DNA of 64,000 bases from NCBI RefSeq assembly GCF_002777825.1, contig NZ_MEIR01000043.1, positions 110,772 to 174,771 of the forward strand, written 5' to 3'. The notes beneath the pieces were generated by a model that worked only from the letters and a program-made list of their open reading frames with translations, ran no database searches and was not told the DNA's origin. The stretch comes from Snodgrassella alvi (GTDB taxonomy: Bacteria; Pseudomonadota; Gammaproteobacteria; Burkholderiales; Neisseriaceae). Of the stretch, positions 1,712 to 64,000 are shown piece after piece. The position numbers were made by a program, and so were the translations under genes. How positions within the stretch are numbered: the stretch's first letter is position 1; every line of letters starts with the position of its first letter.

Positions 1712-4330
1712 ATGAGTAAACCCACCCTGACACCGATGATGACGCAATATCTGGCCATTAAGGCTGACCATCAGGACAAACTGCTGTTTTACCGGATGGG
1801 CGACTTTTATGAGCTGTTTCTGGATGATGCTGTTGAAGCTGCACGTCTGTTGGATATTACGCTAACTACTCGTGGGCAGATTAACGGGGAGCCCATCAAA
1901 ATGGCTGGTGTGCCCTATCATGCGGTGGAACAGTATCTGGCCAAGCTGGTAAAGCTGGGCAAAAGTGTGGCCATTTGTGAGCAGACTGGTGAAGTGGGCG
2001 CAAGTAAGGGGCCGGTTGAGCGGCAGGTAGTGCGTATTGTTACACCAGGCACGCTGACTGATACGGCCTTGCTGGAAGATAAGGAAACCAACCGTATTGT
2101 GGCCGTTTCTTTGTTGAAAAAGCAGCTTGGCGTAGCATGGTTATCGTTACAAAATGGAGAATTCTGTTGCAAAATTATTTCGCCGGAAACGCTGCCACAT
2201 GAACTTGCCCGCTTGCAGGCTGCGGAAATCCTGCTATCTGACCAGACACAGGACAAGCTGAATCTTGCCAGTCATGACCGGCGACTAACCCGTTTACATG
2301 CATGGCAATTTGCAGCTGATACGGGTGCCCGTATGATTCAGCGCTATTTTGGCAGTCAGGATTTACGTGCTTTCGGCTTGCAGTCAGGCGAACATGATGC
2401 CGCTATTGGAGCGGCAGGGGCTTTGCTGAATTATGTGCAGCAGACACAAATGCAGTTACCTAAACATCTGGATAGTCTGACACTGGAGCAGGAATCGGCT
2501 TATATCGGCATGGATGCGGCCACACGGCGTAATCTGGAATTAACCCAGACGTTAAGCGGCCAGAAAGCGCCGACACTGTTTTCGGTTTTGGATCATTGTG
2601 CAACGCATATGGGTAGCCGCCTGCTGGCGCAGTGGCTGCATCAGCCGTTACGCCGGCATGAGCAAATTATAGCTCGCCAGCAGGCGGTGGCTGCACTGGC
2701 ACCACAGTGTGTGCAAGTCACTGCTATGTTAAATCAGGTGGCAGATATTGAGCGTATTGCTGCACGTATTGCTATTGGTAGTGCACGGCCAAGGGATTTA
2801 TCGGCTTTGCGTGATAGTTTGGCTGTTTTGTCAGCTTTTTGTTTGGAGGAGTCTGGCCAAAGTAGTCTGGTACAGACTCTGCTGGAGCAATTTCCGCCGG
2901 CAGCACCTGTCGCCCAGCAATTAACTATGGCTATTATGCCTGAACCGGCAATATGGTTGCGTGATGGCGGGGTGATTAATGACGGCTTTGATGCTGAGCT
3001 GGATGAGCTGCGCCGCTTGCAAAATCATGCAGATGAATTTTTGCAGCAATTGGAAAGCCGGGAGCGTGAGCGCACGGGCTTATCTAGTTTGAAAGTTGAA
3101 TTTAATCGTGTGCATGGTTTTTATATTGAGTTAAGCAAGGTACAGTCTGAACAGGCACCGGCAGACTATCAGCGACGCCAAACTCTGAAAAATGCTGAAC
3201 GTTATATCACTCCTGAATTAAAGGCTTTTGAAGAGAAAGTATTGAGTGCACAGCAAAATGCACTGGCTCGGGAAAAGCAGTTATATGATGCTCTGATGTT
3301 GCAGTTACAGGCCGAGCTGTCGCTATTGCAACGTTGTGCCCGCGCTGCCGCTACTCTGGATGTATTAACTACGTTGGCCAGCTATGCTGATACTGAACAT
3401 TACTGTTTTCCAAAGCTGGTGAATTATCCATGTCTACAGATTAGTAATGGCCGCCATCCTGTTGTAGCGGCACAGGTTAAGCAGTTTACCGCTAATGATA
3501 CTCAGCTTGATGATAAACGCCGGCTGATGTTGCTGACTGGTCCGAATATGGGCGGTAAATCGACGTATATGCGGCAGGTAGCTTTAATTGTGTTACTGGC
3601 GCATATTGGTGCACCTGTGCCGGCAGACAACTGTATTCTGGGAGAGTTTGATCAGATATTTACCCGCATTGGGGCTTCGGATGATCTGGCGGGCAATCGT
3701 TCTACCTTTATGGTGGAAATGTCGGAAACTGCCTATATTCTGCATCATGCTACTGAGCGCTCGCTGGTATTAATGGATGAAGTTGGCCGTGGTACCTCTA
3801 CTTTTGACGGTTTGGCGCTGGCACAGGCTATTGCTGAACATTTGTTGCAAAAAAATCGCAGCTATACTCTTTTTGCCACTCATTATTTTGAGTTAACCAG
3901 ATTACCGGAACAGTATACGCATGCATTCAATATGCATCTGGCCGCTTTGGAGCAAGGGCAGGATATTATTTTTCTGCATCATATTGAACCCGGACCAGCC
4001 AGTAAAAGCTATGGGATAGCGGTGGCAAAACTGGCCGGCCTACCTACACGGGCACTGAACGCTGCTTACCGGCATTTGCAGGCACTAGAACAACATGCGG
4101 CTGATAAGCAACCACAATTAGATATGTTTCAGGCACAGTTAGAAGATGTGGTAGAAGCAGAGGTGGCCAATGCCGATGCAGACACTTCTTCTGCAACCAT
4201 GATGCCAGCGGATTTATGTGCTCAGCTAAATGCTCTTAATCCCGATGAGTTGACGCCTAAAGCGGCTCTTACTGCGGTATATGATTTGGTACGTTGCTGG
4301 AAAAATCATCAGCAAAATCAACAGTCATAA
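1712..4330 (+). CDS. mutS: DNA mismatch repair protein MutS
   Basis: MutS recognises base mismatches and small loops and, with MutL, starts strand-directed repair in the cytoplasm. The N-terminal mismatch-binding Phe-x-Glu motif is visible (Phe32, Glu34 within GDFYELF). The Walker A loop GPNMGGKST starts at residue 610, followed by the ABC-type signature and Walker B ([15 protein letters not shown]) and the [10 protein letters not shown] segment. The 872-aa length is normal for the family. The ATG at 1712 directly precedes a typical MutS N-terminus. The gene seems monocistronic, since the next gene is the tRNA with its own promoter. There is no sign of damage. Confidence 0.97.
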
Positions 4331-4360
4331 TAAAATATGTACGGTTAATCCGCTTTTTAG

Positions 4361-4388
4361 TTGACATTGCGCTGGTTATCCGTATAAT
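4361..4388 (+). promoter_or_regulatory. Sigma-70 promoter of the initiator tRNA gene
   Basis: A perfect -35 box TTGACA (4361-4366) and a perfect -10 box TATAAT (4383-4388) are separated by 16 bp. The -10 ends 15 bp before the first base of the tRNA, which suits a stable-RNA promoter. Confidence 0.85.
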
Positions 4389-4403
4389 GACTTTCTTACC
4401 AGA

Positions 4404-4480
<77 letters not shown>

Positions 4481-4490
4481 GATTTTAAAA

Positions 4491-4517
4491 TGCCCTGTTA
4501 CAACAGGGCATTTTATT
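4491..4517 (+). terminator. Rho-independent terminator after tRNA-fMet
   Basis: A 9-bp inverted repeat (TGCCCTGTT / AACAGGGCA) with a very short loop is followed directly by TTTTATTTT, starting 10 bases after the tRNA. Confidence 0.85.
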
Positions 4518-5783
4518 TTGCCTGTTTAATTTGAAGAATGATTTACTCAATTGCAATTATGGTGTAGGTAGGCAGATATTCATCTGGCTATATTATTTTG
4601 TTGCATACGGTTTTATAACTAATGACTTTACAAAAATCTGCCAGGTACAAAACAGGCCAGTAAAGTTTATGTAATGTTGCTAAATATTATTCTGAATAGA
4701 ATTTAGTCCATTTTTCTGCCAATAATATTAATATAATATCTCTATGATGTTCTGGTTGTAATCAGGATTTATGGTTAACCTGTAAATTAAAGATTCTTAT
4801 CTAGAATGCAGCTAATTCATTTTTATGTCTGTTCTGCAATTAAGGTGATAATGAAATCTCATGTATTTATCAAGGTATTTTTCAGCGTATTGCTTAAAGC
4901 AAGTTATAAATCTAAAAATTGATTAGCAGTTATTTTTATTTCTAACAAATCATTTCTGTGTTTGTTTCTTCATTGACTAATATGTCTAGAACGGGAATCA
5001 AAAGTTTTCCCATTCAAGCAATCCATATTCTCATTTTATGGATGTGATGCTTTAGCTTATTAAATCGCATGGCTGGTTTCCATTGACCAGTAAAGAATGA
5101 TTATTCTTCTGATTATAGCCAAGTCCACTATCTATTAGTTTATCAGTATTGCGATGTTCGCTTTTATACTTTCCTTTTAATTTAAATAGTATATAACCTG
5201 CATTGGTATGGTTTAAGTTAAGAGCTATTTATACTAATGATGTTTTTATTTATGGATGGGCTAAAGTTAATTTAGCGATTTCTGCTGGTGTATTAAAAGC
5301 AAATTACATTAAATCTAGCCACTACAAGGCTACGCTGGTGGATATTTTAAAACTGTTTAAATTAGCTATGAATATGTGCATGCCAATTATCAACCTGTAT
5401 CTGCGGTGTCTGGGACAAATAATACACCTGAAGTAGATTAGACGATGGCATTGGATGAAATTAATGAGAGTGCCTAGAACTTCATTTGCTGGATTAGAAG
5501 ATTACACATATTGATGTCATTCTGTTGCGGGATAAGTTGATCTGTTTGCTTAAAGAGAGTTTTTTTCAAATAGCGGTAAACATATAAATAAATTGTAGAT
5601 ATTAGTGATATAGACAGGAAGCATTATGGATCGCATTCATTTGCTCTAAATGAATTAACCTGTCTGGTCAAATTGTTGTTTATTCATCACTGGATTAATT
5701 TCATTGTTTGCTTTTTTCGTTCATGTATTTGTAACAAATGCTATTTGCTGTTCGAGTTGGGATTAAGAATGCGGCATGTTATT
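4518..5783. other. 1.27-kb AT-rich stretch without an intact gene
   Basis: No open frame with convincing coding character is intact here. The only coding-like segment is the possible gene remnant at 5203-5441, listed separately. The rest is AT-rich sequence with no recognised RNA, repeat or insertion element. Confidence 0.6.
5203..5441 (+). pseudogene. Possible frameshifted gene remnant, family unknown
   Basis: A frame opening near 5203 reads as plausible protein (for example FIYGWAKVNLAISAGVLKAN, then TLVDILKLFKLA). Near 5369 the coding-like sequence jumps to another frame and continues as YEYVHANYQPVSAVSGTNN to a TAG at 5439-5441. The second segment has better residue composition than the continuation in the original frame. 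This suggests one ancestral gene with a one-base shift. The length and pattern would suit a small DNA-binding protein, but no family can be named. It could be chance. Confidence 0.35.
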
Positions 5784-6428
5784 TCAGCTGACTTTTTTGA
5801 CATCTGGATAAACCCAGAGTTTCTGTTCATGCACTTCGGCCAGAAAGACTTCCTCCAGTTTCTGCCCCTGACGGTTGAGTTCTTTTTTCAGCCATTCTTC
5901 GTCATGTCCTAATGCTTCCAGACTGGGATAATTAATTACACCATTTTCTATCACTACTACGGCCATGGCTGGATCGCCTTTTTTGACGACTGTCATCTGT
6001 CCGTTATATTCAAACCAAACATCACTGAGTACTTCTAGACTGGGATAGCCACGTTGATGCAATAACATGATGAAATCGCGGATTGACAGTTTGGCTTTGC
6101 GAAAGTTCTGTGATAGTACGATGCCATTTTCCATTAAGCGTACTGAGGTGCCATCGACAAAGTCTTTGGCGATATTGCGCTTGAATGTGACATAACGTAC
6201 AAGTAATAACAGCCCTGCCCAGAAAATGGATGCACTCATCAGTAATGTTATGCTGATGGAAGGATTATATAAAGGGCCACCAATAATCGCTCCCAAAACC
6301 ACATTGCCTACTTGATCAATGGCGGAAATCGGTGCCAGAGACCCTTTACCGGATAAATTGATGTACACCAGCAATATGCAAAATGCAACTAACATTTTGG
6401 AGATGATATTGATATAGATGGGGTTCAT
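5784..6428 (-). CDS. DUF421/YetF-family membrane protein
   Basis: The protein belongs to the DUF421 (YetF/YcaP-like) family of inner-membrane proteins, whose function is poorly known. From the preferred start, three hydrophobic segments fill roughly the first 75 residues. A soluble domain follows with the typical pattern of the family (LMENGIVLSQNFRKAKLSIRD, then a segment resembling LEVLSDVWFEYNG). The ATG at 6428 is chosen over the Met seven codons upstream because it has AAGGAAG at the correct distance. The usual DUF3290 partner gene is not adjacent. The gene stands alone, and downstream (lower coordinates) lies the gene-poor stretch. Confidence 0.8.
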   Translation of the reverse strand: MNPIYINIISKMLVAFCILLVYINLSGKGSLAPISAIDQVGNVVLGAIIGGPLYNPSISITLLMSASIFWAGLLLLVRYVTFKRNIAKDFVDGTSVRLMENGIVLSQNFRKAKLSIRDFIMLLHQRGYPSLEVLSDVWFEYNGQMTVVKKGDPAMAVVVIENGVINYPSLEALGHDEEWLKKELNRQGQKLEEVFLAEVHEQKLWVYPDVKKVS

Positions 6429-6684
6429 TATGGCTTCCTTTGTCTGCATAACAGGCGTTTTATCTAGGCATGATTTGCATGGATTGTTTTTTACAACCGT
6501 AGCGTTTTGCCAGGTATTGTGCTGATACTGTATCTGTTATGCCTGAAGCAGACTATGGTAGCTACCTGTTTTTTATGATTTATTTACATTATTTTCCTCA
6601 TGTATTTTGTTTTTTTCATAAAAGCACTTATTGTAATTACTTGTTTAAGTGTAGCTATTATGGCTATTTGCAGGCTGTGTCTGG

Positions 6685-6714
6685 CAGGCAACCATGAATA
6701 TATCTGGTTGCCTG
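6685..6714 (-). terminator. Inverted repeat downstream of prfH, possible terminator
   Basis: Perfect 10-bp arms (CAGGCAACCA / TGGTTGCCTG) with a 10-base spacer start 8 bases past the prfH stop. No T-run follows on the minus strand, so termination is plausible but not of the standard type. Confidence 0.45.
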
Positions 6715-6721
6715 TAGACGA

Positions 6722-7330
6722 CTATAAAGGTTTGAAATCAAGTTGGGTAAATATTCGCACCGGATTACCGCGTGCTATCTGATGATGGTGTTTGTGCTGC
6801 ACGGCTTTATGTTTTGCCTGTAACTGCTGCGCCTGTTGTGACAGTTTATGCTGAAGCAGCAACACAGCGAGTTTTTTGTTGGCATGCTGGCTACGCTCAG
6901 TTTGCACTTTAACGCTGATACCACTGGCTACATGGGTGGCTCTGACTGCTGATTCGGTTTTGTTAATATGCTGACCACCGGCTCCAGATGCGCGCATGGT
7001 TTCAAAGACAATTTCATCTGGCTGTTGCTGAACAATTGGGTCAAAACAGCTTGCTCCGATAAACCAGTTTTTGCGTTTGTGCTTTGGGCGATAAGGGCTG
7101 GGGCAAATCCATTGAATGGTGCCCTGCCACCTATCAGACAATGCCTTGGCCTGAGCACCCTCCAAGGTAACCAGTACTGAATGCAACCCGTGTTTAGCTG
7201 GTTCCTGTTCCACAATTTCTACTTTAACCTGCATTTGTTTGGCTTCATATTGTAAGCGTGCCAACGCTTTTACCACCGCCAGACAGCATTCTGCCGGTCC
7301 GTAAGCGGCAGATAATTGCAAAAGTTGCAT
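6722..7330 (-). CDS. prfH: Peptide chain release factor homolog PrfH
   Basis: PrfH is a release-factor-like protein that hydrolyses peptidyl-tRNA on ribosomes. Work on the PrfH/RtcB2 pair shows it rescuing ribosomes cut in the 16S rRNA decoding centre. At 202 aa it is about half the size of RF1/RF2. It keeps the catalytic GGQ motif at residues 118-120 in the context [16 protein letters not shown], and ends in a basic, Gln/Lys-rich helix as in other domain-3 proteins. The stop of rtcB2 and the ATG of prfH overlap by one base (TAATG), so translation is probably coupled. There is no stop-codon recognition domain, which fits rescue rather than normal termination. Confidence 0.92.
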
Positions 7331-8466
7331 TATTTTTTCTCCGTTTGAACTTTATAGGTGATTACCGGCTTGAAGCGTGCTATTGGCCGGATTAAATCGG
7401 CCTGAACCATGGCAGCAATGACACTGTCGATTGATTTATAGGCTTGTGGTGCTTCTTCATACAGGAGCTCACGGTCGCAGCAGATTACCCGGCTGCCATG
7501 TACGGTACGGGTGAGCTGGTCAGCTGTATAGCGTCCGTCCAGTCTGCCTTTGCAGGCTGAGCGCTGCCATTTGCGTCCGGCGCCGTGTGCCAGTGAATAC
7601 AGTGCGGATGCTGTATCCAGTGGCTGCACCAGATAGCTGAAGTCACCGCGTGAGCCCGGAATAATCACCAGTCCTTTCGTGGCTGCTGCGGCACCTTTGC
7701 GATGCAGCCAGCCGCATTCACCGTTAATGGTGACTGGCTCGATAAAGTTGTGGCTGATATCTACCAGCTTTTGTCCCTGCGCGCGCAGGTTGGCCAGTAT
7801 GCGCCGGCTAATCAGCTCTCGGTTTTGTTGTGCATAATCCAGAGCCTGATTGTGCTGCATCAGGTAAGTGCTGCCAGCAACGCTATTGGCAACTAAACCC
7901 TGATGGCCATACTGGCGGATGTGCTTATCCAGAATCACACCGCCCAGACCACGTGAACCGCTATGCACCATCAGTTGCAGATGTTGCCGGTTTAAGCCAA
8001 TTTGCCGGGCAGTTTCCGGCGCATAAATGGTTTCCAGCATTTGCAGTTCGGCAAAGTGATTGCCGCCGCCAATGGTGCCGGAAGCATACGTGTGTTCTGC
8101 AAGTGGCCGGATATCTGGCCACAGGCTGATGCATTCTGCTTCAGACAGGGGCTGGTCGATATTGCCCAGACGTTTAATCAGTTTGGCCTGATTCATGGCA
8201 TGGATTTTTACTGTGGTTTGCCATAATGACATGCCACAGCCGATATCACCGCCAATGAGTGCCGGATAAAGATATTGTGTAGTAAAAAAAGCAGCACCTA
8301 CCGGATAACCGCGGCCGGGGTGTAAATCCGGCATACCAGCTACGTATTTAATGTTAGGAAGTGTTGCTGTTGTTTGCAGTTGCTGGATGGCTTCGCCCTC
8401 TAACCAGAGTTCTGGTGTTGCTATCAGGGTGATGTTGTCCGCCAGCGGCTGAATAGAATTGCCCAT
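7330..8466 (-). CDS. rtcB: RNA 3'-phosphate/5'-OH ligase, RtcB2 type
   Basis: RtcB seals RNA ends carrying 2',3'-cyclic phosphate (or 3'-phosphate) and 5'-OH, using GTP and Mn2+. All core motifs are present, numbered from the ATG at 8466: [16 protein letters not shown] (Asp74, Cys77), GGGNHF (His137), MVHSGSRG (His168), PGSRGDFSY, and HGAGR with the histidine that becomes guanylylated (His294). A TTG five codons upstream is an alternative start. The short length (~378 aa) and coupling to prfH place it in the RtcB2 group, whose proposed role is religation of 16S rRNA after decoding-centre cleavage. PrfH then releases the stalled chain. Confidence 0.93.
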
Positions 8467-8830
8467 TCTGATCCGTTCCAAATTATTTTATTTTGGTAAT
8501 AAGCAAGCAATAGTTAGCCATGTTCATTAGAAATGAACAGGATTAGCGTGCTGAAGAATAAATTGGCAGGCCGAAGCCAAGGATCAGGAGATGATTAACC
8601 CTGGATTGACCTGCAAAGGATAGGTAGTACAAACATAATTATTCCTTTCCATTGCAATGTTGATGATTTGATAGAGTGGCGTACTGTAAATTATGTTTTA
8701 CAGGTAGTCAAAAATAATCAGCCGTTTTTATTCTAATAGGCCAATTATGGTTAATGGTGTGTGGCTATTTCACTACTGTTTGGCTATTTTGGGCACTTTT
8801 GTTATGGGTTTATTTTAAGCTTAAAAAATA
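8467..8830. other. Intergenic region upstream of rtcB2
   Basis: AT-rich sequence between the rtcB2 start and the acetyltransferase remnant. It must hold the promoter of the rtcB2-prfH operon on the minus strand, but no clear -35/-10 pair stands out. No open frame of coding quality was seen. Confidence 0.5.
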
Positions 8831-9147
8831 TTAAACAAATTGATCAGCAATTTGATATCCCGCCTGTTTATATAGGGCTCTTGCCTTGTGATTGTTACTG
8901 ACGGTGCATAATGAAATGCTACTGTAGCCACCATCACAGGCAAATTTTTTACGTATTGCATGAGATGGGCGGCGATGCCTTTTTGCCGGCAGCTTGCGGG
9001 GATATATAAGTCGTTGAATATTATAGTAGGCGATATTGGTAATGAAGAAAAGGAAAAATATGGCTGTACAAATCCGCAGGCTTGTTGCTGATAATAAGCA
9101 CTGAAAATGGCTGAACTCTGCGTTTCTAGTCTATCCTGAATAGATTT
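8831..9147 (-). pseudogene. GNAT-family N-acetyltransferase remnant with frameshift
   Basis: Reading the minus strand from about 9147, the frame gives a typical GNAT core: ACGFVQPYFSFSS, then LYIPASCRQKGIAAHLM, which matches the acetyl-CoA binding pattern (R/Q)xxGxG/A. At the run of six A's near 8946-8951 the coding sequence moves to the next frame. It continues as FACDGGYSSISLCTVSNN, then ARALYKQAGYQ, the usual C-terminal motif, to a TAA at 8833-8831. One more A in the run would restore the frame. The N-terminus is not recognisable and a stop lies just upstream, so the gene seems dead. The base run would be worth checking for slippage. Confidence 0.75.
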
Positions 9148-9279
9148 TTATGCTTTCTATTTGGTTGTCTATCATGCTGTAAGCTGGCGATAGCAGGCAA
9201 ACAGTAAAGCAGCATTATCAATGCTACTCTAATGCAAAAAAATTACAAATGTATCGATAATTTATCGCACAGATATTGA

Positions 9280-9747
9280 TTATGCGGATACATATTTAAC
9301 GATGATAACCCGTGCTTTGGTTTCGACTGATATCAGTGTTTCCTGCATGATTTGCAGTGCCTGCTCCGAACTGAAGCCACCTGAACCGGCGCCAATCAAT
9401 GGAAAAGCAACAGAAGCATAGTTCTGGGTATTAACAATATTCATGGCGGAAATAACTGATGTGCGAATTGAATAAGCACTGGCGCGCCAGAACATGTTGA
9501 TGCCGGCTACATGAATAATGGCTCGATAGGGCAATTTACCGGCACTGGTAACGACTGCGGAACCTAATTTGAGCGCTCCTGCTCTGCCCAACTGGCGAAA
9601 GGGAGCGTAACCGGCTTTTCGCTTGATGGCACCGGATACACCCTGTGGCAACAGTAACCACCATGGAATGATGTTCCGGTTCCATGCGTTGACGATAACA
9701 TCAACAGGTTGTTCCAATAAATTTCCATAGACGATTTCAGGCTGCAT
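9280..9747 (-). CDS. Macro-domain protein, probable ADP-ribose-binding/hydrolase
   Basis: Macro domains bind ADP-ribose, and many remove it from proteins, nucleic acids or O-acetyl-ADP-ribose. The ~155-aa protein is a single domain with the expected motifs: VDVIVNAWN near residue 15, LPQGVSGAIKRKAG (the loop usually written GGGVAxAI), AIIHVAGI, and FPLIGAGSGGFSSEQAL near the phosphate-binding loop. The start at 9747 (MQPEIV) is preferred because the domain begins right after it; an upstream Met (9789) would add 14 residues with no homology. The substrate cannot be told. The gene stands alone, divergent from yciO. Confidence 0.85.
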   Translation of the reverse strand: MQPEIVYGNLLEQPVDVIVNAWNRNIIPWWLLLPQGVSGAIKRKAGYAPFRQLGRAGALKLGSAVVTSAGKLPYRAIIHVAGINMFWRASAYSIRTSVISAMNIVNTQNYASVAFPLIGAGSGGFSSEQALQIMQETLISVETKARVIIVKYVSA

Positions 9748-9927
9748 GGTGAATTTTTCCGCAAAATTTCTGTTTATACTAATGCCCACATCTAAGCATT
9801 TGTTGTATCTGTTACTGCCTGTAGCACTTCTTGATGGCTAGTCGGGCATATTATTGTCTGTCAGTGTGGCATGCTTATGTTTACAATAACTGATTGTAAT
9901 TATGAATACAAGATAAGGAAATCATTT

Positions 9928-10548
9928 ATGGCACAGTTTTTTGCTATCCATCCTACTGATCCGCAGGAACGACTGATTGCTCAGGCAGCGGATATTGTTC
10001 GTCATGGCGGTGTGATTGTTTATCCAACTGATTCCTGTTATGCACTGGGTTGCCAACTGGGTAATAAAGAGGCAATGGAACGGATTCTGCGTTTGCGTGG
10101 TATTGATCAGAAACACCATCTTACGCTGATGTGCCATGATCTGAGCCAACTGGGTGTTTATGCCAAAGTAGATAATAGTCAGTTTCGCTTGCTCAAAGCC
10201 ACGACGCCCGGCAGTTATACTTTTATTTTACAGGCGACTAAAGAAGTACCTGCCCGTACGCTGCATCCAAAACGTAAAACCATTGGTTTACGTGTACCGG
10301 ATAATCGGATTGCGCTGGCGTTATTACAGAATTTGGGTGAGCCAATGTTATCGTGTACGCTGATGCTGCCACATGAAAGTGAACCTTTAACTGATCCGTA
10401 TGAGATACGCGACCAGCTGGAACATACAGTTGATTTGGTGATAGATGGTGGCTGGTGCGGTACGGAACCGACAACGGTAATCGATATGACCGAGGGTATT
10501 TCGCTGATACGCGCAGGCAAAGGTGATACGGCCGTATTTGGTTTGTAA
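9928..10548 (+). CDS. yciO: YciO/Sua5/YrdC-family protein (threonylcarbamoyl-AMP synthase-like)
   Basis: The family makes or binds threonylcarbamoyl-AMP for the t6A modification of ANN-decoding tRNAs. YciO is a paralog of TsaC whose own role is less certain. Visible features are GGVIVYPTDSCYALGC near the N-terminus, the RLRGIDQKHHLTLMC stretch, the PGSYTFIL motif, and a C-terminal SLIRAGKGD. The 206-aa length fits YciO. The start at 9928 is chosen for the AAGGAA ribosome binding site and the direct match to the family N-terminus. The longer upstream frame has no support. Confidence 0.85.
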   Translation: MAQFFAIHPTDPQERLIAQAADIVRHGGVIVYPTDSCYALGCQLGNKEAMERILRLRGIDQKHHLTLMCHDLSQLGVYAKVDNSQFRLLKATTPGSYTFILQATKEVPARTLHPKRKTIGLRVPDNRIALALLQNLGEPMLSCTLMLPHESEPLTDPYEIRDQLEHTVDLVIDGGWCGTEPTTVIDMTEGISLIRAGKGDTAVFGL

Positions 10549-10613
10549 AGAACAAACTGGTACTATGTTGTGCTCAGTGTGGTAGTTTTTATTTATGTTT
10601 TAAGGATTTTACC

Positions 10614-11264
10614 TTGGAGAAAGTTGATTTAGCTTTTTTATTGCTGGCCATTTTGCCGATTTTACTGGCCATTACTCTTTCGGAAGCGGCCTGTGGCTAT
10701 ATGGCACGTTATTGTGGAGACCGTACGGCTGAGACGATGGGGCGGCTAAGCCTAAACCCAGCTAAATACATTGATATTATTGGAACAATCATTGTACCGA
10801 TCTTTACACTAATTGTTTTGCAGGGTTTTTTTATGGTTGGCTGGGCAAAGCCAGTACCGATTGACCCGCGTAATTTCAAGGATCCGCGTAAAGGTGAACG
10901 TCTGGTAGCTATTGCCGGCCCTCTAGCCAATCTACTGATGTGTGTATGCTGGACAATTGTGGTGATTATCAGCAACTGGGTACCAGAATACTTTCAGGAA
11001 CCGATGGCACTGATGGGGGAACTGGGTGTTCTGTTTAATGCAGTATTCTGCTTTTTCAGTTTACTGCCGATCCCACCGCAACCCGGTGCCCGTTTCGTTA
11101 ACAGCTTTCTGTCGCCACGTGCTTCGATGCAGTACCTCAAGCTGGAACCTTATGGCTCATGGATTCTTATATTTATGATTATCAGCGGTTTAATGTCGCC
11201 TATTCTACGACCGTTTATCAATCTAATTATTTCGATGATGTCATTTTTAATTAATCTATTCTGA
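10614..11264 (+). CDS. Site-2-protease-like (M50) membrane protein lacking the catalytic motifs
   Basis: The fold and several motifs are those of small M50 intramembrane metalloproteases of the YwhC/SpoIVFB type: multiple membrane segments, LNPAKYIDIIGTIIVP, GWAKPVPIDPRNFKDPR and GPLANLL. The zinc-binding HExxH is replaced by SEAAC (residues 23-27). The second metal-ligand motif (usually LDGGR) reads PQPGAR (about 155-160). It therefore should not be an active protease. From memory, Neisseria homologs share a degenerate motif, so this appears to be a conserved pseudoenzyme. The start is a TTG with AAGGA about 8 bases upstream. A strong terminator follows. Confidence 0.85.
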   Translation: MEKVDLAFLLLAILPILLAITLSEAACGYMARYCGDRTAETMGRLSLNPAKYIDIIGTIIVPIFTLIVLQGFFMVGWAKPVPIDPRNFKDPRKGERLVAIAGPLANLLMCVCWTIVVIISNWVPEYFQEPMALMGELGVLFNAVFCFFSLLPIPPQPGARFVNSFLSPRASMQYLKLEPYGSWILIFMIISGLMSPILRPFINLIISMMSFLINLF

Positions 11265-11292
11265 GTATTTCAAGTAATGACAAATAGTATCG

Positions 11293-58498: not shown

Positions 58499-59001
58499 AC
58501 AACATACATCATAAAAACAAAATGACACGACTGCTGCCAAACAAAAACTCATAAGCCCGATAAAAAGCAATAAAAGCAAACCACGAATATCAAAACAGCC
58601 AAGCAGTAATACCCATAACATCACTTAATCTTCTGCTTACCATCATTTTCTATAATCTATTCAATTCCTTTAATTACATACCAAACAAAACCAGCCTACA
58701 TTTCGAACCCATATAAACGTATTGAAAACCAAGATATTCATCTTAACTACCAAACACGACAAACCCATTGTAATAAATGCACAATATATCCAAACCAAAC
58801 TTATGCCTAACAAATTATCAAAACACCATCAAACCTAATCTAAATCCCAAATCATCTATCCAGAAATATTCATTCCCCAGATATAACATATATTAACAAT
58901 ATAATTAATTCACAAATCTTATTTATCCATTAATACTTATTTAATAGCAGAAAAGTTAACCACAAAATAACATTTAACCATTTTACAAATATAAAATTTC
59001 C
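58499..59001. other. AT-rich spacer between the polysaccharide operon and the lipoprotein array
   Basis: No gene of coding quality. The composition changes sharply at about 58,500 from C-rich coding DNA to very AT-rich sequence. This continues to the point (about 59,002) where homology to the array unit begins abruptly. Confidence 0.6.
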
Positions 59002-59238
59002 GTAGCTAAAATCAGAGCATGGCGTGAGCAAATATTAAATGGTGATTTATCCGATGTTGGCGAGGTGTATCAGCAACTGGCCAAACGTGGCTATCATTAT
59101 GCTAAATGGGCGTATGGGGTAGCATCGGCGGATACCCTTACCGGCAATGGCGCATTGGAATTTATGCAGGCAGTGGCGAAAGAACATCACCATATTTTAA
59201 CGGACGATGAAACCAATAAGATCCGCTGCGCTGGTTGA
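59002..59238 (+). pseudogene. 5'-truncated copy of the 86-aa array gene
   Basis: Homology to the small array gene starts abruptly at about RAWREQILNGDLSDVGEV and continues in frame, nearly identical, to the usual C-terminus (ILTDDETNKIRCAG) and a TGA at 59236-59238. The first ~11 codons with the start and ribosome binding site are replaced by unrelated AT-rich DNA. It marks the left edge of the tandem array. Confidence 0.85.
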
Positions 59239-59408
59239 GCTTAGCATAATGTAAATATTTATTAATCCAGCAAATATACATAAATACTGAACTGTTGTTT
59301 AACATTTAATTTAAAACAATAAAATTTTTAAAATCGCCTTCTTTTTCTTTTCTTTTTGTAAAATTTATGTTAATTTTTACTCTATAAAATAGAGCAACAG
59401 GGCTGCTT

Positions 59409-60299
59409 ATGAAGTCTGGATGCAAAAAGATTGTGCTTATCGTGGTGCTGCTGTGGCAGGTGTTGCTGCTTACCGGCTGTGACTATTATGTGAGCGAACA
59501 GCCGGAAAAACAATCAGCGCAGCAGGTACCAGAACCATTCCGCAATCAGGATAGTCGTGGGCGTTATGACACCATTGGCAAACTCGGCACTCACTCCATC
59601 AGCATCCCCGCGGGCGTGATTAATGGCTGGGCACGTTATATCGGCGATCCGGGCGATTTTGCCGATCCGAAAATCAAAGTCAAATACCAGCGTCCACCTA
59701 AAACCTATGATTTACCGATTGAATCATTTGGCTTTCTGTATCGGATTACTGATGGTGATGTCTATACTTCTTTCCGGCAAACAGAAGAGGATTATCGCCG
59801 CGATAATGAAACCTTAATCCCGTATGGCAAACCTTTCCCTTGGGCGAGCGTAAGTGTCTATGGCCAATATGATGCTGCGCCGTTGAATTTTAATTTTACG
59901 GTTCAGGATGACTTTAGATCAGCAAGAGATGTTACCCACTTCGATTATATCCAGCAACCACAGCCGCTGTATGGTTTAACTGTATATAAGGCCAATAATG
60001 GTATTGATCCGAAAACCGGCGAACCGTGGAAATCTGATGCTAATGCCAAGGATATTTTTATCAAAAAAGATCAGGCCGGCAATATTAAAACTTATATAGA
60101 TTGTCAATTCACTCAGCATATAAATTCTTGTCATCATATGTTTTATAACGATGACTGGCATATCCAAGTATGGATTAGTTACAGCCGTACTTATCTGCCA
60201 CAGTGGCAGGAGATGGAGGGCAATATTATCAATATACTGGATAGCTGGCGCGTAAGCCCAGAAGGCAAGCTGCTGGGCAAACAGATTGGTAAGGCCTAG
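59409..60299 (+). CDS. Array lipoprotein, copy 1
   Basis: A 296-aa predicted lipoprotein: a hydrophobic signal peptide with lipobox LTGC (Cys24), a linker (YYVSEQPEKQ), then a conserved globular domain. No named family was recognised. Invariant blocks shared by all copies are EPFRNQDSRGRYDTIGKLGT, YDLPIESFGF, DGDVYTSFRQTEEDY, LYGLTVYKANNGIDP and the closing ILDSWRVSPEG. The region at about 150-180 and the segment between two C-terminal cysteines (CQFTQHINSCHHMF) vary between copies. Asp at position +2 after the Cys (CD) suggests retention in the inner membrane. The tandem-array form is what amplified immunity genes look like; function is inferred. Confidence 0.88.
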   Translation: MKSGCKKIVLIVVLLWQVLLLTGCDYYVSEQPEKQSAQQVPEPFRNQDSRGRYDTIGKLGTHSISIPAGVINGWARYIGDPGDFADPKIKVKYQRPPKTYDLPIESFGFLYRITDGDVYTSFRQTEEDYRRDNETLIPYGKPFPWASVSVYGQYDAAPLNFNFTVQDDFRSARDVTHFDYIQQPQPLYGLTVYKANNGIDPKTGEPWKSDANAKDIFIKKDQAGNIKTYIDCQFTQHINSCHHMFYNDDWHIQVWISYSRTYLPQWQEMEGNIINILDSWRVSPEGKLLGKQIGKA

Positions 60300-60344
60300 T
60301 TTTTGGTAGCAGTAGAACTATTGATTATTTCCAAGGAGAGCACT

Positions 60345-60605
60345 ATGTTAGAAGCAAAAAAAGTAACCAAAGATGAAATTAGAGCATGGCGTGAGCAAAT
60401 ATTAAATGGAGATTTATCCGATGTTGGTGAAGTGTATCAGCAACTGGCCAAACGTGGCTATCATTATGCTCAATGGGCGTATGGGGTAGCATCGGCGGCT
60501 ACCCTTACCGGTAATGGCGCATTGGAATTTATGCAGGCGGTGGCGAAAGAGCATCACCATATTTTAACGGACGACGAAACCAATAAGATACGCTGCGCTG
60601 GTTGA
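60345..60605 (+). CDS. 86-aa array protein, copy 1
   Basis: A small soluble protein with a strong ribosome binding site (AAGGAGAG, 5 bases before the ATG at 60345), which decides the start against an upstream GTG-type extension. It has no signal peptide or membrane segment. The first ~12 residues differ most between copies (LEAKKVTKDEI). The rest (WREQILNGDLSDVGEVYQQL, AKRGYHYAQWAYGVAS, GALEFMQAVAKEHHHIL) is nearly invariant. No family was recognised with certainty. It resembles N-terminal helical segments of larger secreted or effector proteins, so it may be a stand-alone adaptor or a truncated effector start. Confidence 0.8.
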   Translation: MLEAKKVTKDEIRAWREQILNGDLSDVGEVYQQLAKRGYHYAQWAYGVASAATLTGNGALEFMQAVAKEHHHILTDDETNKIRCAG

Positions 60606-60775
60606 ACTTAGCACAATGTAAATATTTATTAATATATTCCATATGCATCAATACTAAACTATTACTTAACATTTAATTTAAAATAATAAAATTTTTAAAA
60701 TCGCATTATTTTTCTTTTCTTTTGGTAAAATTTCTGTTAATTTTTACTTTATAAAATAGAGCAACAGGGCTGCTT

Positions 60776-61669
60776 ATGAAGTCTGGATGCAAAAAGATTG
60801 TGCTTATCGTGGTGCTGCTGTGGCAAGTATTGCTGCTTGCCGGCTGTGACCAAGATTTTGGCAAACAACCGGAAACACAAGTTGTTGAGCAAGTGTCGGA
60901 ACCATTCCGCAATCAGGATAGTCGTGGGCGTTATGACACCATTGGCAAACTCGGTACTCAATCCATCAGCATCCCCGCGGGCGTGATTGATGGCTGGGCA
61001 CGTTATATGGGCGATCCGGGTGATTTTGCTGATCCTAAAATCAAAGCCAAATACCGGCATCCACCTAAAACCTATGATTTACCGATTGAATCATTTGGCT
61101 TTCTGTATCGCATCACTGATGGTGATGTCTATACGTCATTCCGGCAAACAGAAGAGGATTATCGCCGCGATAATGAAACTTTAATCCCGTATGGCAAACC
61201 TTTCCCTTGGGCTGATGTGATTATTTATAGTGAATATGATGCTGCTGCGCCGTTGAATTTTAATGTCTACGTGCAGGAAGGCTTTAAAATATCAAAAGAA
61301 GTTTCCAATATTGATTATATCCAGCAGCCACAGCCGCTGTATGGCTTAACTGTATATAAGGCCAATAATGGCATTGATCCCAAAACTGGTGAACCATGGA
61401 AATCGGATGTTAATGCCAAGGATATTTTGCTCAAAAAAGATCAGACCGGCAATATTAAAACCTATATCGACTGTCAATTTACTCAGCATATAAATATTTG
61501 CAACCATATGTTTTATAACAACAACTGGCATATAAGGGTTCTTGTTGGTTATAACCGTGTTTATCTGCCGCAATGGCAGGAAATAGAGGGCAATATTATC
61601 AAAATACTGGATAGCTGGCGCGTAAGCCCAGAAGGCCGGCTGCTGGGCAAACAGATTGGTAAGGCCTAG
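60776..61669 (+). CDS. Array lipoprotein, copy 2
   Basis: A 297-aa homolog of copy 1, starting 1367 bases further on. Lipobox LAGC (Cys24) is followed by DQDFGKQPETQVVEQVSEPF, which differs clearly from copy 1 but is shared with copy 3. The variable middle reads ADVIIYSEYDAAAPLNFNVY, VQEGFKISKEVSN. The cysteine loop is CQFTQHINICNHMF. Long blocks elsewhere are identical to copy 1 at DNA level, so the copies are recombining mosaics. It is intact. Confidence 0.88.
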   Translation: MKSGCKKIVLIVVLLWQVLLLAGCDQDFGKQPETQVVEQVSEPFRNQDSRGRYDTIGKLGTQSISIPAGVIDGWARYMGDPGDFADPKIKAKYRHPPKTYDLPIESFGFLYRITDGDVYTSFRQTEEDYRRDNETLIPYGKPFPWADVIIYSEYDAAAPLNFNVYVQEGFKISKEVSNIDYIQQPQPLYGLTVYKANNGIDPKTGEPWKSDVNAKDILLKKDQTGNIKTYIDCQFTQHINICNHMFYNNNWHIRVLVGYNRVYLPQWQEIEGNIIKILDSWRVSPEGRLLGKQIGKA

Positions 61670-61714
61670 TTTGTAGTAGTGGTATAACTTATTGATTATC
61701 TCAAGGAGAGCACT

Positions 61715-61975
61715 ATGTTAGAAGCAAAAAAAGTAAGTAGAAGTGAAATTCAGGCATGGCGTGAGCAAATATTAAATGGTGATTTATCCGATGTTGGCGC
61801 GGTGTATCTGCAACTGGCTAAACGTGGCTATCATTATGCTAAATGGGCGTATGGGGTAGCATCGGCGGATACCATTACCGGTAATGGCGCATTGGAATTT
61901 ATGCAGGCGGTGGCGAAAGAACATCACCATATTTTAACGGCCGATGAAACCAATAAGATTCGCTGCACTGGTTGA
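61715..61975 (+). CDS. 86-aa array protein, copy 2
   Basis: A second full copy with the same AAGGAGAG ribosome binding site. It differs from copy 1 mainly near the N-terminus (KKVSRSEIQAWREQ) and at GAVYLQL (copy 1: GEVYQQL), KWAYGVASADTI, and at the end (TADETNKIRCTG). It lies 45 bases after lipoprotein copy 2 and 170 bases before copy 3, and is probably co-transcribed with the preceding lipoprotein gene. Confidence 0.8.
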   Translation: MLEAKKVSRSEIQAWREQILNGDLSDVGAVYLQLAKRGYHYAKWAYGVASADTITGNGALEFMQAVAKEHHHILTADETNKIRCTG

Positions 61976-62145
61976 ACTTAGCGCAATGTAAATATTTATT
62001 AATATATCCCATATACATGAATACTGATTTGTTGTTTAGCTTTTAATTTAAAACAATAAAATTTTTAAAGTCGCATTATTTTTCTTTTCTTTTGGTAAAA
62101 TTTATGTTAATTTTTACTCTATAAAGTAGAACAACAGGGCTGCTT

Positions 62146-63036
62146 ATGAAGTCTGGATTTAGGAAAAGTCTACTTATTGTGGTGTTGCTGTGGCAGGTAT
62201 TGCTGCTTGCCGGCTGTGACCAAGATTTTGGCAAACAACCGGAAACACAAGTTGTTGAGCAAGTGTCGGAACCATTCCGCAATCAGGATAGTCGTGGACG
62301 TTATGACACCATTGGCAAACTAGGTACTCAATCCATCAGTATCCCCGCGGGCGTGATTGATGGCTGGGCGCGCTATATGGGCGATCCGGGCGATTTTGCC
62401 GATCCTAAAATCAAAGCCAAATACCAGCATCCACCTAAAACCTATGATTTACCGATTGAATCATTTGGCTTTCTGTATCGCATTACTGATGGTGATGTCT
62501 ATACGTCATTCCGGCAAACATAAGAGGATTATCGCCGCGATAATGAAACCTTAATCCCGTATGGCAAACCTTTTCCGTGGGCCGATGTCATTATCTATGG
62601 TGAATATGATGCTGCGCCGTTGAATTTTAATTTTACGGTTCAGGATGACTTTAGAGTATCAAAAGAAGTAACCAATATTGATTATATCCAGCAGGAAAAG
62701 CCGCTGTATGGTTTAACCGTATATAAGGCCAATAATGGTATTGATCCGGAAACCGGCGAACCATGGAAATCGGATACCCTTGCCAGAGATCGAATGATTA
62801 AAAAAGATCAGGCAGGCAATATTAAAACTTATATCCAGTGTGAATTTACCCAGCATAAAAATTTTTGTAGCCATATGTTTTATAACGATGACTGGCATAT
62901 CAGAGTATCAATTAGTTATAACCGTACTTATCTGCCACAGTGGCAGGAGATGGAGAGCAATATTATCAAAATACTGGATAGCTGGCGGGTAAGCCCAGAA
63001 GGCAAGCTGCTGGGCAAACAGATTGGTAAAGCTTAG
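62146..63036 (+). pseudogene. Array lipoprotein, copy 3, with an internal stop
   Basis: This copy aligns over its full length with copies 1 and 2. GAA of the invariant SFRQTEEDY block has become TAA at 62521-62523. The reading frame after the stop is kept and the rest of the protein (ADVIIYGEYDAAPLNFNFTV, then IQCEFTQHKNFCSHMF) is intact. The first 125 codons would give a truncated lipoprotein. The signal peptide differs (KSGFRKSLLIVVLLW). A single base change accounts for the loss, so it is recent. Confidence 0.9.
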
Positions 63037-63081
63037 TTTTTGGTAGCAGTAGAACTGTTGATTATTTTCAAGGAGAGCACT

Positions 63082-63342
63082 ATGTTAGAAGCACAAAAAG
63101 TATCAGCAGCTGAAATCAAGGCATGGCGTGAGCAAATATTAAATGGTGATTTATCCGATGTTGGCGCGGTGTATCTGCAACTGGCTAAACGTGGCTATCA
63201 TTATGCTAAATGGGCGTATGGGGTAGCATCGGCGGATACCATTACCGGTAATGGCGCATTGGAATTTATGCAGGCGGTGGCGAAAGAGCATCACCATATT
63301 TTAACGGACGACGAAACCAATAAGATTCGCTGCACTGGTTGA
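63082..63342 (+). CDS. 86-aa array protein, copy 3
   Basis: The third full copy, with ribosome binding site AAGGAGAG and ATG at 63082. The N-terminus reads EAQKVSAAEIKAWREQ; from there it is almost identical to copy 2. It remains open although the lipoprotein gene before it carries a nonsense mutation, so selection on the small gene may be independent. Confidence 0.8.
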   Translation: MLEAQKVSAAEIKAWREQILNGDLSDVGAVYLQLAKRGYHYAKWAYGVASADTITGNGALEFMQAVAKEHHHILTDDETNKIRCTG

Positions 63343-63512
63343 ACTTAGCGCAATGTAAATATTTATTAATATATCCCATATACATGAATACTGATTTGTT
63401 GTTTAGCTTTTAATTTAAAACAATAAAAATTTTAAAATCGCCTTCTTTTTCTTTTATTTTGGTAAAATTTATGTTAATTTTTACTCTATAAAATAGAGCA
63501 ACAGGGCTGCTT

Positions 63513-64000
63513 ATGAAGTCTGGATATAAAAAGATTGTGCTTATCGTGGTGCTGCTGTGGCAGGTATTGCTGCTTACCGGCTGTGACTATTATTTGAGCG
63601 AACAGCCGGAAAAACAACCAGCGCAGCAGGTACCGGAACCATTCCGCAATCAGGATAGTCGTGGGCGTTATGACACCATTGGCAAACTAGGTACTCAATC
63701 CATCAGCATCCCTGCTGGCGTAATTGATGGCTGGGCGCGTTATATGGGCGATCCGGGCGATTTTGCCGATCCGAAAATCAAAGCCAAATACCAGCGCCCA
63801 CCTAAAACCTATGATTTACCAATTGAATCATTTGGCTTTCAATATCGCATTAGCGATGGCGATGTCTATACTTCATTCCGGCAAACAGAAGAGGATTATC
63901 GTCGCGATAATGAAACCTTAATCCCATATGGCAAACCTTTTCCGTGGGCTGGTGTAATCATTTATGGAGAATATGATGCTGCAGCGCCGTTGAATTTTAA
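63513..64000 (+). CDS. Array lipoprotein, copy 4 (partial, runs off the window)
   Basis: The fourth copy starts 1367 bases after copy 3 and is open to the window edge (about 162 codons). The lipobox is LTGC. The linker YYLSEQPEKQPAQQVPEPF is of the copy-1 type. The variable middle AGVIIYGEYDAAAPLNFN is closer to copies 2 and 3. It also differs at FGFQYRISDGDV. This mixture of copy types within one gene shows recombination between units. Confidence 0.88.
   Translation, partial: MKSGYKKIVLIVVLLWQVLLLTGCDYYLSEQPEKQPAQQVPEPFRNQDSRGRYDTIGKLGTQSISIPAGVIDGWARYMGDPGDFADPKIKAKYQRPPKTYDLPIESFGFQYRISDGDVYTSFRQTEEDYRRDNETLIPYGKPFPWAGVIIYGEYDAAAPLNF

Follow-up and report, generated by a model that had tools for sequence, protein, structure and literature searches.

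The final part of a 64,000-nucleotide stretch of a Snodgrassella alvi genome (G000:C43:110772-174771, hereafter the window) holds a tandem array in which genes for a predicted lipoprotein alternate with open reading frames (ORFs) of 86 codons. With a probability of roughly 0.73, we interpret this array as an amplified, recombining set of immunity lipoproteins of the Smlt3025/FrpD type which would counteract a putative antibacterial RTX effector, probably a substrate of a type I secretion system (T1SS), and the 86-codon ORFs as cut-off heads of the effector gene. This reading rests on comparisons of sequence within the genome, across the genus Snodgrassella, which inhabits the gut of honeybees and bumblebees (PMC9239279), and against proteins of known function.

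A repeat search returned periods of 1367, 1370 and 1367 nt over window positions 58993-64000, with 83–93% identity among the reported 300-nt repeat copies. This confirmed the original prediction, made from the nucleotides of the window, of ~1.37-kb tandem units, each comprising one lipoprotein gene and one 86-codon ORF (Table 1). Of the four lipoprotein copies counted in that prediction, however, the third is broken by a single nonsense codon (TAA at codon 126, a position occupied by GAA or CAA in the other 22 of 23 aligned copies); a frameshift in this copy was considered and dropped. Similarly, a strong ribosome binding site had been claimed before every gene, which held for the 86-codon ORFs (AAGGAG) but not for the lipoprotein genes, where only a modest AGGG was seen. 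Promoter-like and terminator-like sites were no commoner in the array than in shuffled sequence. As the final base of the window is also the final base of contig C43, copy 4 is incomplete, and because the contig ends inside the array, the count of 'at least four' units reflects a limit of the assembly.

Three contigs of the same genome (G000) end in array sequence, C43 and C85 on the 5' side and C36 on the 3' side. The terminal 882 nt are identical between C43 and C85, and the upstream end of the C36 array is an exact match to the terminal 839 nt of C43. On C36, a cut head stub, a lipoprotein gene, a second head stub and a second lipoprotein gene are followed by an ORF for a 1697-aa RTX protein, residues 1–83 of which match the 86-aa protein. 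The lipoprotein gene at 10389-11282 of this locus (L011, minus strand) stands immediately upstream of the effector gene (5250-10343), as is characteristic of FrpD/FrpC-type operons. The same adjacency was found in S. alvi App4-8, where a single 198-kb contig carries, without interruption, lipoprotein, stub, lipoprotein, stub, lipoprotein and an effector of ~1700 aa. By synteny, the flanks of C43 and C36 correspond to the two sides of this one contiguous array. Thus the full-length effector gene with a matching N-terminus that had been predicted at the end of the array was found both on C36 and, uninterrupted, in App4-8, and the idea that the 86-aa protein represents the conserved 5' portion of a longer gene was borne out. 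The flank of C85 corresponds to that of a second S. gandavensis locus, and a second effector on C60 has 99.7% identity over residues 146–530, its head being cut by the contig end. We infer that G000 has two arrays, each ending in an effector, on contigs that are not joined. A decayed remnant of a related effector was also seen in this genome on C82 (L012:8822-10062); it consists of pieces of the head and one resembling the C-terminus, and no lipoprotein match adjoins it.

The C36 effector carries 21 stretches of RTX nonapeptide repeats (PF00353, E 1.3e-122) and a PF06594 match near its C-terminus (E 1.8e-6), and a Pfam search of the whole protein returned no family unrelated to RTX. A profile built from effector heads matched PDB 9p3h, a 444-aa 'conserved hypothetical protein' (E 5.5e-10), which may represent the structure of this toxin head, in which case the variable segment could be mapped on it. 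In published work, the toxin Smlt3024 was found to resemble 221 larger proteins; the similarity lay in the N-terminal region in all but one, RTX-type repeats were present in all but six, and Snodgrassella is named among them (PMC6759196).

Export by a T1SS is suggested by the surroundings of related loci. In ESL0693, from the same genus, OEP/TolC-like, HlyD and HlyB genes lie directly upstream of the array on the same strand, followed by a lipoprotein, a truncated effector (804 aa), a further lipoprotein and an effector of 1763 aa; in Pararobbsia (L116), HlyD and OEP genes are followed by two lipoproteins and then by a 1517-aa RTX effector. T1SS genes therefore adjoin the lipoprotein–effector pair in both cases, and the lack of nearby effector and secretion genes that would have counted against the original prediction was not seen. 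In G000, a HlyB-type gene over the curated cut-off was located on C81, a different contig from the array. The genus set comprised 14 genomes, our own included, with G004 86% and G007 60% complete. Lipoproteins were found in 11 of these, and an effector extending beyond a stub in nine, although the G012 effector is seen only from residue 155 onwards, at the start of a contig. A HlyB-type gene over the cut-off was present in eight of the nine effector-bearing genomes (the ninth, G002, shows a 702-bit piece where a contig begins) versus one of the five effector-less genomes (G005). With G002 counted as having the gene, a one-sided Fisher test done by hand gave 0.005, uncorrected for kinship; weaker matches to the HlyB model occurred in all 31 genomes searched.

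The head is also found without RTX repeats. A 355-aa homologue in Psychrobacter sp. FME13 (L112:4514-5581) bears a Tox-PAAR-like domain (PF13665) and no RTX part, and sits between DUF2169 and RHS genes, after two immunity-like lipoproteins. Judged by its gene content, this locus is a predicted type VI secretion system (T6SS) version of the same head/lipoprotein module. Counting the published delivery by a type IV secretion system (T4SS), one head and its lipoprotein occur with three different routes of delivery, a pattern in favour of a module of toxin plus immunity.

The identity of the lipoprotein points in the same direction. A profile of 63 lipoproteins matched PDB 6PDK (E 9.9e-8) over profile positions 193–268, in the C-terminal part. 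This structure is Smlt3025, an immunity lipoprotein that shields E. coli from Smlt3024, a toxin active in the periplasm (PMC6759196). On the strength of this match, the array lipoprotein is a homologue of a tested immunity protein; the immunity function put forward in the original prediction is thereby supported by homology, and the structural match is not to a housekeeping family. The model of the Smlt3025 family (NF050129) reached at most 26.8 bits, over the C-terminal ~45 aa only, against an equivalog cut-off of 500. Among 274 genomes of the class it matched our own genome only, so the Smlt3024/3025 loci themselves were not retrieved. Single-sequence PDB searches gave nothing convincing, with copy 1 reaching only E 0.3 against 6pdk, and the 86-aa protein had no match in the PDB search. 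No clear family was assigned to the window proteins by Pfam, PADLOC or PHROGs. Matches to 8dhi, a tyrosine-phosphatase-domain protein (E 0.032 and 0.0081 over 50 residues), did not recur in the profile search and were regarded as chance. The lipoprotein homologues listed with an organism in their names were all from Snodgrassella.

The membrane in which the lipoprotein resides was assessed from its lipobox. In 96 close homologues from the window's clade, Asp follows the lipid-bearing Cys in 91 of 91 recognised lipoboxes; of the five proteins without one, four lack a start and the fifth has a long extension at its N-terminus. Under the sorting rule known from enterobacteria, Asp after the lipid Cys signals retention in the inner membrane, and inner-membrane placement is likely within this clade. 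Among 15 proteins examined from other relatives, nine of 13 recognised lipoboxes have Ser, Asn, Leu or Gly at this position; inner-membrane placement as a family rule was therefore dropped, and placement in the wider family is uncertain. The differing residue may mean that membrane placement varies within one immunity family.

These observations bear on a different explanation, in which the lipoprotein anchors the RTX protein to the surface, as in the FrpD/FrpC adhesion model, and the array is a reservoir for antigenic variation of a surface lipoprotein. Amplified, mosaic copies would suit such a role, as would the nine lipoboxes outside the clade that are not of the retained kind, and RTX proteins have been suggested to help Snodgrassella associate with the gut epithelium (PMC12866650). 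An anchor is, however, difficult to reconcile with lipoproteins that persist without an effector. In G001 a lone lipoprotein without effector lies between patatin-like and methyltransferase-like genes; in G004 two lipoproteins and their stubs, with no effector at the locus, lie between sigma-factor-like and Ppx-like genes (all four names assigned by eye); and in G007 a lipoprotein likewise has no effector at its locus. The invariant Asp of the window's clade and the PAAR-fused Psychrobacter head, which lacks an RTX part and belongs to a T6SS-type locus, argue against it as well, as does the activity of the homologue Smlt3025 as a tested immunity protein (PMC6759196). We consider surface anchoring quite improbable.

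Across a wider sample, the lipoprotein was found in 12 of 61 relatives searched and in two of 36 genera. A single lone copy occurs in Psychrobacter vallis. Stenoxybacter acetivorans, from another genus, has three successive units of lipoprotein plus 63-aa stub, then a lipoprotein followed by an effector that the contig end interrupts, at ~30% identity. Within Snodgrassella, further loci, here termed type II (L105:1503, L103:12080 and L106:2196), carry a more distant set of effector and lipoproteins, mostly in tandem.

All 14 stubs that reach codon 83 have an open frame, encoding 86 aa in ten cases, 91 aa in three and 99 aa in one (a count that omits edge-cut, decayed and shorter copies). Their ratio of non-synonymous to synonymous polymorphism (pN/pS) is 0.26, versus 0.24 for five effector starts, suggesting either that the stubs are under selection or that gene conversion has kept them alike. 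The small proteins might accordingly have a function of their own, for instance as spacers that sustain translation along a long operon or as partners of the lipoprotein or effector, and the strong ribosome site on the copies in our genome and the three 63-aa stubs kept in Stenoxybacter would be in line with this. On the other hand, gene conversion with the 5' end of the effector would give the same pN/pS, shorter remnants occur in the G009 and G004 arrays, and two edge copies in our own genome lack a start. Furthermore, no stub remnant was found in the three type II array spacers examined (G008 and G010), and no signal peptide is apparent by eye, so that the proteins would stay in the cytosol. 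A function of their own thus appears unlikely. Instead, the lengths seen (804, 99, 91, 86 and 63 aa, short remnants, none) and the existence of several different junctions are consistent with leftovers from independent duplications.

Recombination among the lipoprotein copies, which had been predicted from their mosaic appearance, was confirmed by a test of the pairwise homoplasy index (PHI) type, run with our own code. None of 1000 shuffles was as extreme as the observed value for the six full-length copies of G000, none of 1000 for six copies of G010, and none of 300 for all 23 aligned copies. Copy 4 of the window does combine, as had been noted, a linker of the copy-1 type with a middle segment like that of copy 2. 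Over the 23 copies, pN/pS was 0.13 for the core (residues 46–145), 0.57 for the linker, 0.53 for the middle segment, 0.41 for block 210–224 and 0.37 for the Cys loop.

The effectors vary mainly in one segment. Residues 146–330 fall into two types (X and Y), with 45–48% identity between and 75–95% within types, while residues 1–83 share 84–95% and residues 331–530 share 74–92% identity. The same split was seen in the closest 12 of 35 database effectors, with one outlier. In five adjacent effector–lipoprotein pairs of type I, lipoprotein residues 26–60 follow the effector split (49–54% between and 77–100% within types), an agreement that one split in ten would show by chance. The idea that all three variable lipoprotein segments track the effector was rejected, since only this linker/N-terminal segment does so in these pairs. 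A second comparison comes from ESL0693, whose tandem effectors, over the stretch compared, are 71–100% identical in 40-residue windows except at 201–240 (22%) and at the truncated end (52%), and whose lipoproteins share 97–100% identity up to residue 150 and 49–80% beyond it. The natural comparisons therefore disagree on which lipoprotein segment would set specificity. With respect to repertoire, the only effector found in G002 is Y-type, yet the genome has two X-type orphan lipoproteins, and G009 has both Y-type and type II effectors with both kinds of lipoprotein present. Such orphans are as expected of a repertoire directed against the effectors of others, although they are suggestive only.

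Several observations weigh against our interpretation. No lipoprotein segment has a pN/pS above 1, the maximum being 0.60 among our own copies, and arms-race selection is therefore not demonstrated. In type I pairs, lipoprotein residues 146–270 do not follow the effector type. Moreover, the effectors of G008 and G013 are 93–99% identical over residues 146–545 (77–79% before), yet their adjacent lipoproteins are only 50–51% identical over residues 121–280 (85–91% before), so adjacent pairs do not always co-vary. The pN/pS values, the G008 and G013 comparison and the broken third copy in the window would be compatible with an array that merely raises the dosage of one immunity activity, its variation being drift spread by recombination. 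Against simple dosage stand the two-type split shared by effector residues 146–330 and lipoprotein residues 26–60, which is weak evidence at one of ten possible splits, and the sharp local difference between the ESL0693 effectors, matched by lipoproteins that diverge mainly after residue 150. We regard dosage as having a low probability. In addition, the intact frames and low pN/pS of the stubs could mean that the small proteins are functional; within G000, the link between C43 and C36 rests on synteny and shared repeat sequence rather than on one contig; and FrpD itself was not matched in the PDB search with the lipoprotein profile, which returned only two distinct sequences up to E = 10. Finally, published remarks on Snodgrassella RTX proteins, for which bacteriocin, adhesion or surface roles have been suggested, lean to colonisation, adhesion and surface functions as much as to bacteriocin activity (PMC12866650, PMC10704631). 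An RTX toxin of Frischella is mentioned in PMC10104596.

Taken together, the data would be explained by the following scheme of immunity to an RTX effector. The effector would be secreted and act in the periplasm of neighbouring bacteria, where the envelope-anchored lipoprotein, facing the periplasm from a membrane that is uncertain, would bind its N-terminal domain. Since immunity is encoded ahead of the toxin, tandem duplication, or displacement by an incoming cassette of lipoprotein plus head, would leave the old lipoprotein with a head stub on the upstream side of the intact gene. The stubs would then shorten, serving together with the spacers as homology handles for further exchange and not as functional proteins, while orphan lipoprotein copies would protect against effector types that the strain does not encode. 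More tentatively, and with less confidence than we attach to the scheme itself, the locus might represent a head-displacement polymorphic toxin system that mirrors Rhs and contact-dependent inhibition (CDI) systems. Specificity would then lie at the N-terminus and immunity upstream, incoming cassettes would recombine in front of the gene and drive older immunity genes and head stubs outward, the array would be an ordered, heritable record of rival toxins encountered, with chimeric antidotes arising by shuffling, and the head would be carried by T1SS, T4SS and T6SS across lineages.

Table 1. Array features in the window, with positions counted from its first nucleotide.
Feature	Position	Strand	Basis and remarks
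5'-truncated effector-head remnant, array start	58993..59238	+	Codons 6-83, short tail, stop; start lost; 94.9% identity to effector residues 6-83
Lipoprotein copy 1, 296 aa, FrpD/Smlt3025-like predicted immunity lipoprotein, X-type N-terminal segment	59409..60299	+	ORF; NF050129 C-terminal match E 2.7e-6, under equivalog cut-off
Effector-head ORF 1, 86 codons	60345..60605	+	ORF, match to effector head
Lipoprotein copy 2, 297 aa	60776..61669	+	ORF; first row of profile matching 6PDK
Effector-head ORF 2, 86 codons	61715..61975	+	ORF, match to effector head
Lipoprotein copy 3, in-frame TAA at codon 126	62146..63036	+	ORF, codon alignment
Effector-head ORF 3, 86 codons	63082..63342	+	ORF, match to effector head
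Lipoprotein copy 4, codons 1-162, truncated at contig end	63513..64000	+	Identical to first complete lipoprotein on C36

The neighbourhood of the array was also surveyed. A run of envelope-polysaccharide genes adjoins it (window:54401-58447), comprising a glycosyltransferase with a DXD sugar-binding region, a Stealth protein (CR1-CR4), a glycosyltransferase-like ORF recognised by eye and a bacterial sugar transferase (PF02397). Further upstream, a single 575-aa ORF (window:50349-52076) fuses biotin protein ligase and type III pantothenate kinase. Beyond the C36 effector, two proteins of 569 and 648 aa (L011:839-2548 and 2876-4822) consist, by eye, of LPxNL/DLxxT-like repeats; the 648-aa protein matches DUF5649 repeats, and this flank is kept in S. 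alvi App4-8.

Among known systems, the Smlt3024/Smlt3025 pair of Stenotrophomonas maltophilia (PMC6759196) is alike in the homologous C-terminal half of its lipoprotein and in having an immunity protein that is a predicted lipoprotein. It differs in delivery, which there is by an X-T4SS via XVIPCD, whereas here RTX repeats and T1SS genes are found, with a tandem array and head stubs. FrpD and FrpC of Neisseria meningitidis (PMC5233953), from the same bacterial family, likewise pair a lipoprotein with a giant RTX protein in one operon (frpDC). The fold and topology of Smlt3025 resemble those of FrpD, and FrpC/FrpD have been proposed as effector and immunity protein (PMC6759196). In contrast to the inner-membrane placement that is likely in the clade studied here, FrpD is an outer-membrane protein, and the portion of PMC5233953 available mentions no array.

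With regard to array structure, the esaG and tipC arrays associated with the type VII secretion system of Firmicutes (PMC9484751) are strings of non-identical immunity paralogues that recombine between blocks of homology, as do the non-identical tandem paralogues described here. TipC has a probable lipoprotein signal, and a fragment of the tspA toxin gene lies inside a tsaI cluster (PMC9484751). The proteins and secretion system are different, however, and the tspA fragment is a 3' end, whereas here 5' toxin stubs stand between the copies. In bee gut bacteria, including Snodgrassella, C-terminal displacement in Rhs arrays similarly leaves toxin pieces and immunity genes beside an intact gene (PMC8125069). 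There the orphans are 3' ends lying downstream, whereas here they are 5' ends lying upstream, in keeping with an immunity gene that is upstream of its toxin.

RTX genes of Snodgrassella are themselves on record, although neither an immunity lipoprotein nor an array is mentioned in the available text of the surveys (PMC10704631, PMC12866650). A term search of the text available for PMC9239279 found no T1SS, RTX or lipoprotein, and that for PMC8125069 no T1SS or RTX. As far as the open-licence PMC literature could be consulted, no earlier report of a Snodgrassella array of T1SS/RTX immunity lipoproteins was found. Mosaic immunity arrays are already known; what is new is an array of immunity-like lipoproteins in a T1SS/RTX setting, with repeated 5' stubs and a mirror-image layout. 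The locus would provide a genomic case, in a bee gut symbiont, for the suggestion, made in 2019, that RTX proteins like FrpC serve as antibacterial effectors of T1SS, and would add a T1SS weapon to the T6SS warfare known among bee-gut bacteria. For cross-protection tests, arrays, carriers of immunity without an effector and natural chimeras are already available. Compared with the Rhs systems, the array offers a mirror-image route to toxin and immunity diversification, with 5' stubs left upstream, which would pass through annotation pipelines as unrelated hypothetical proteins.

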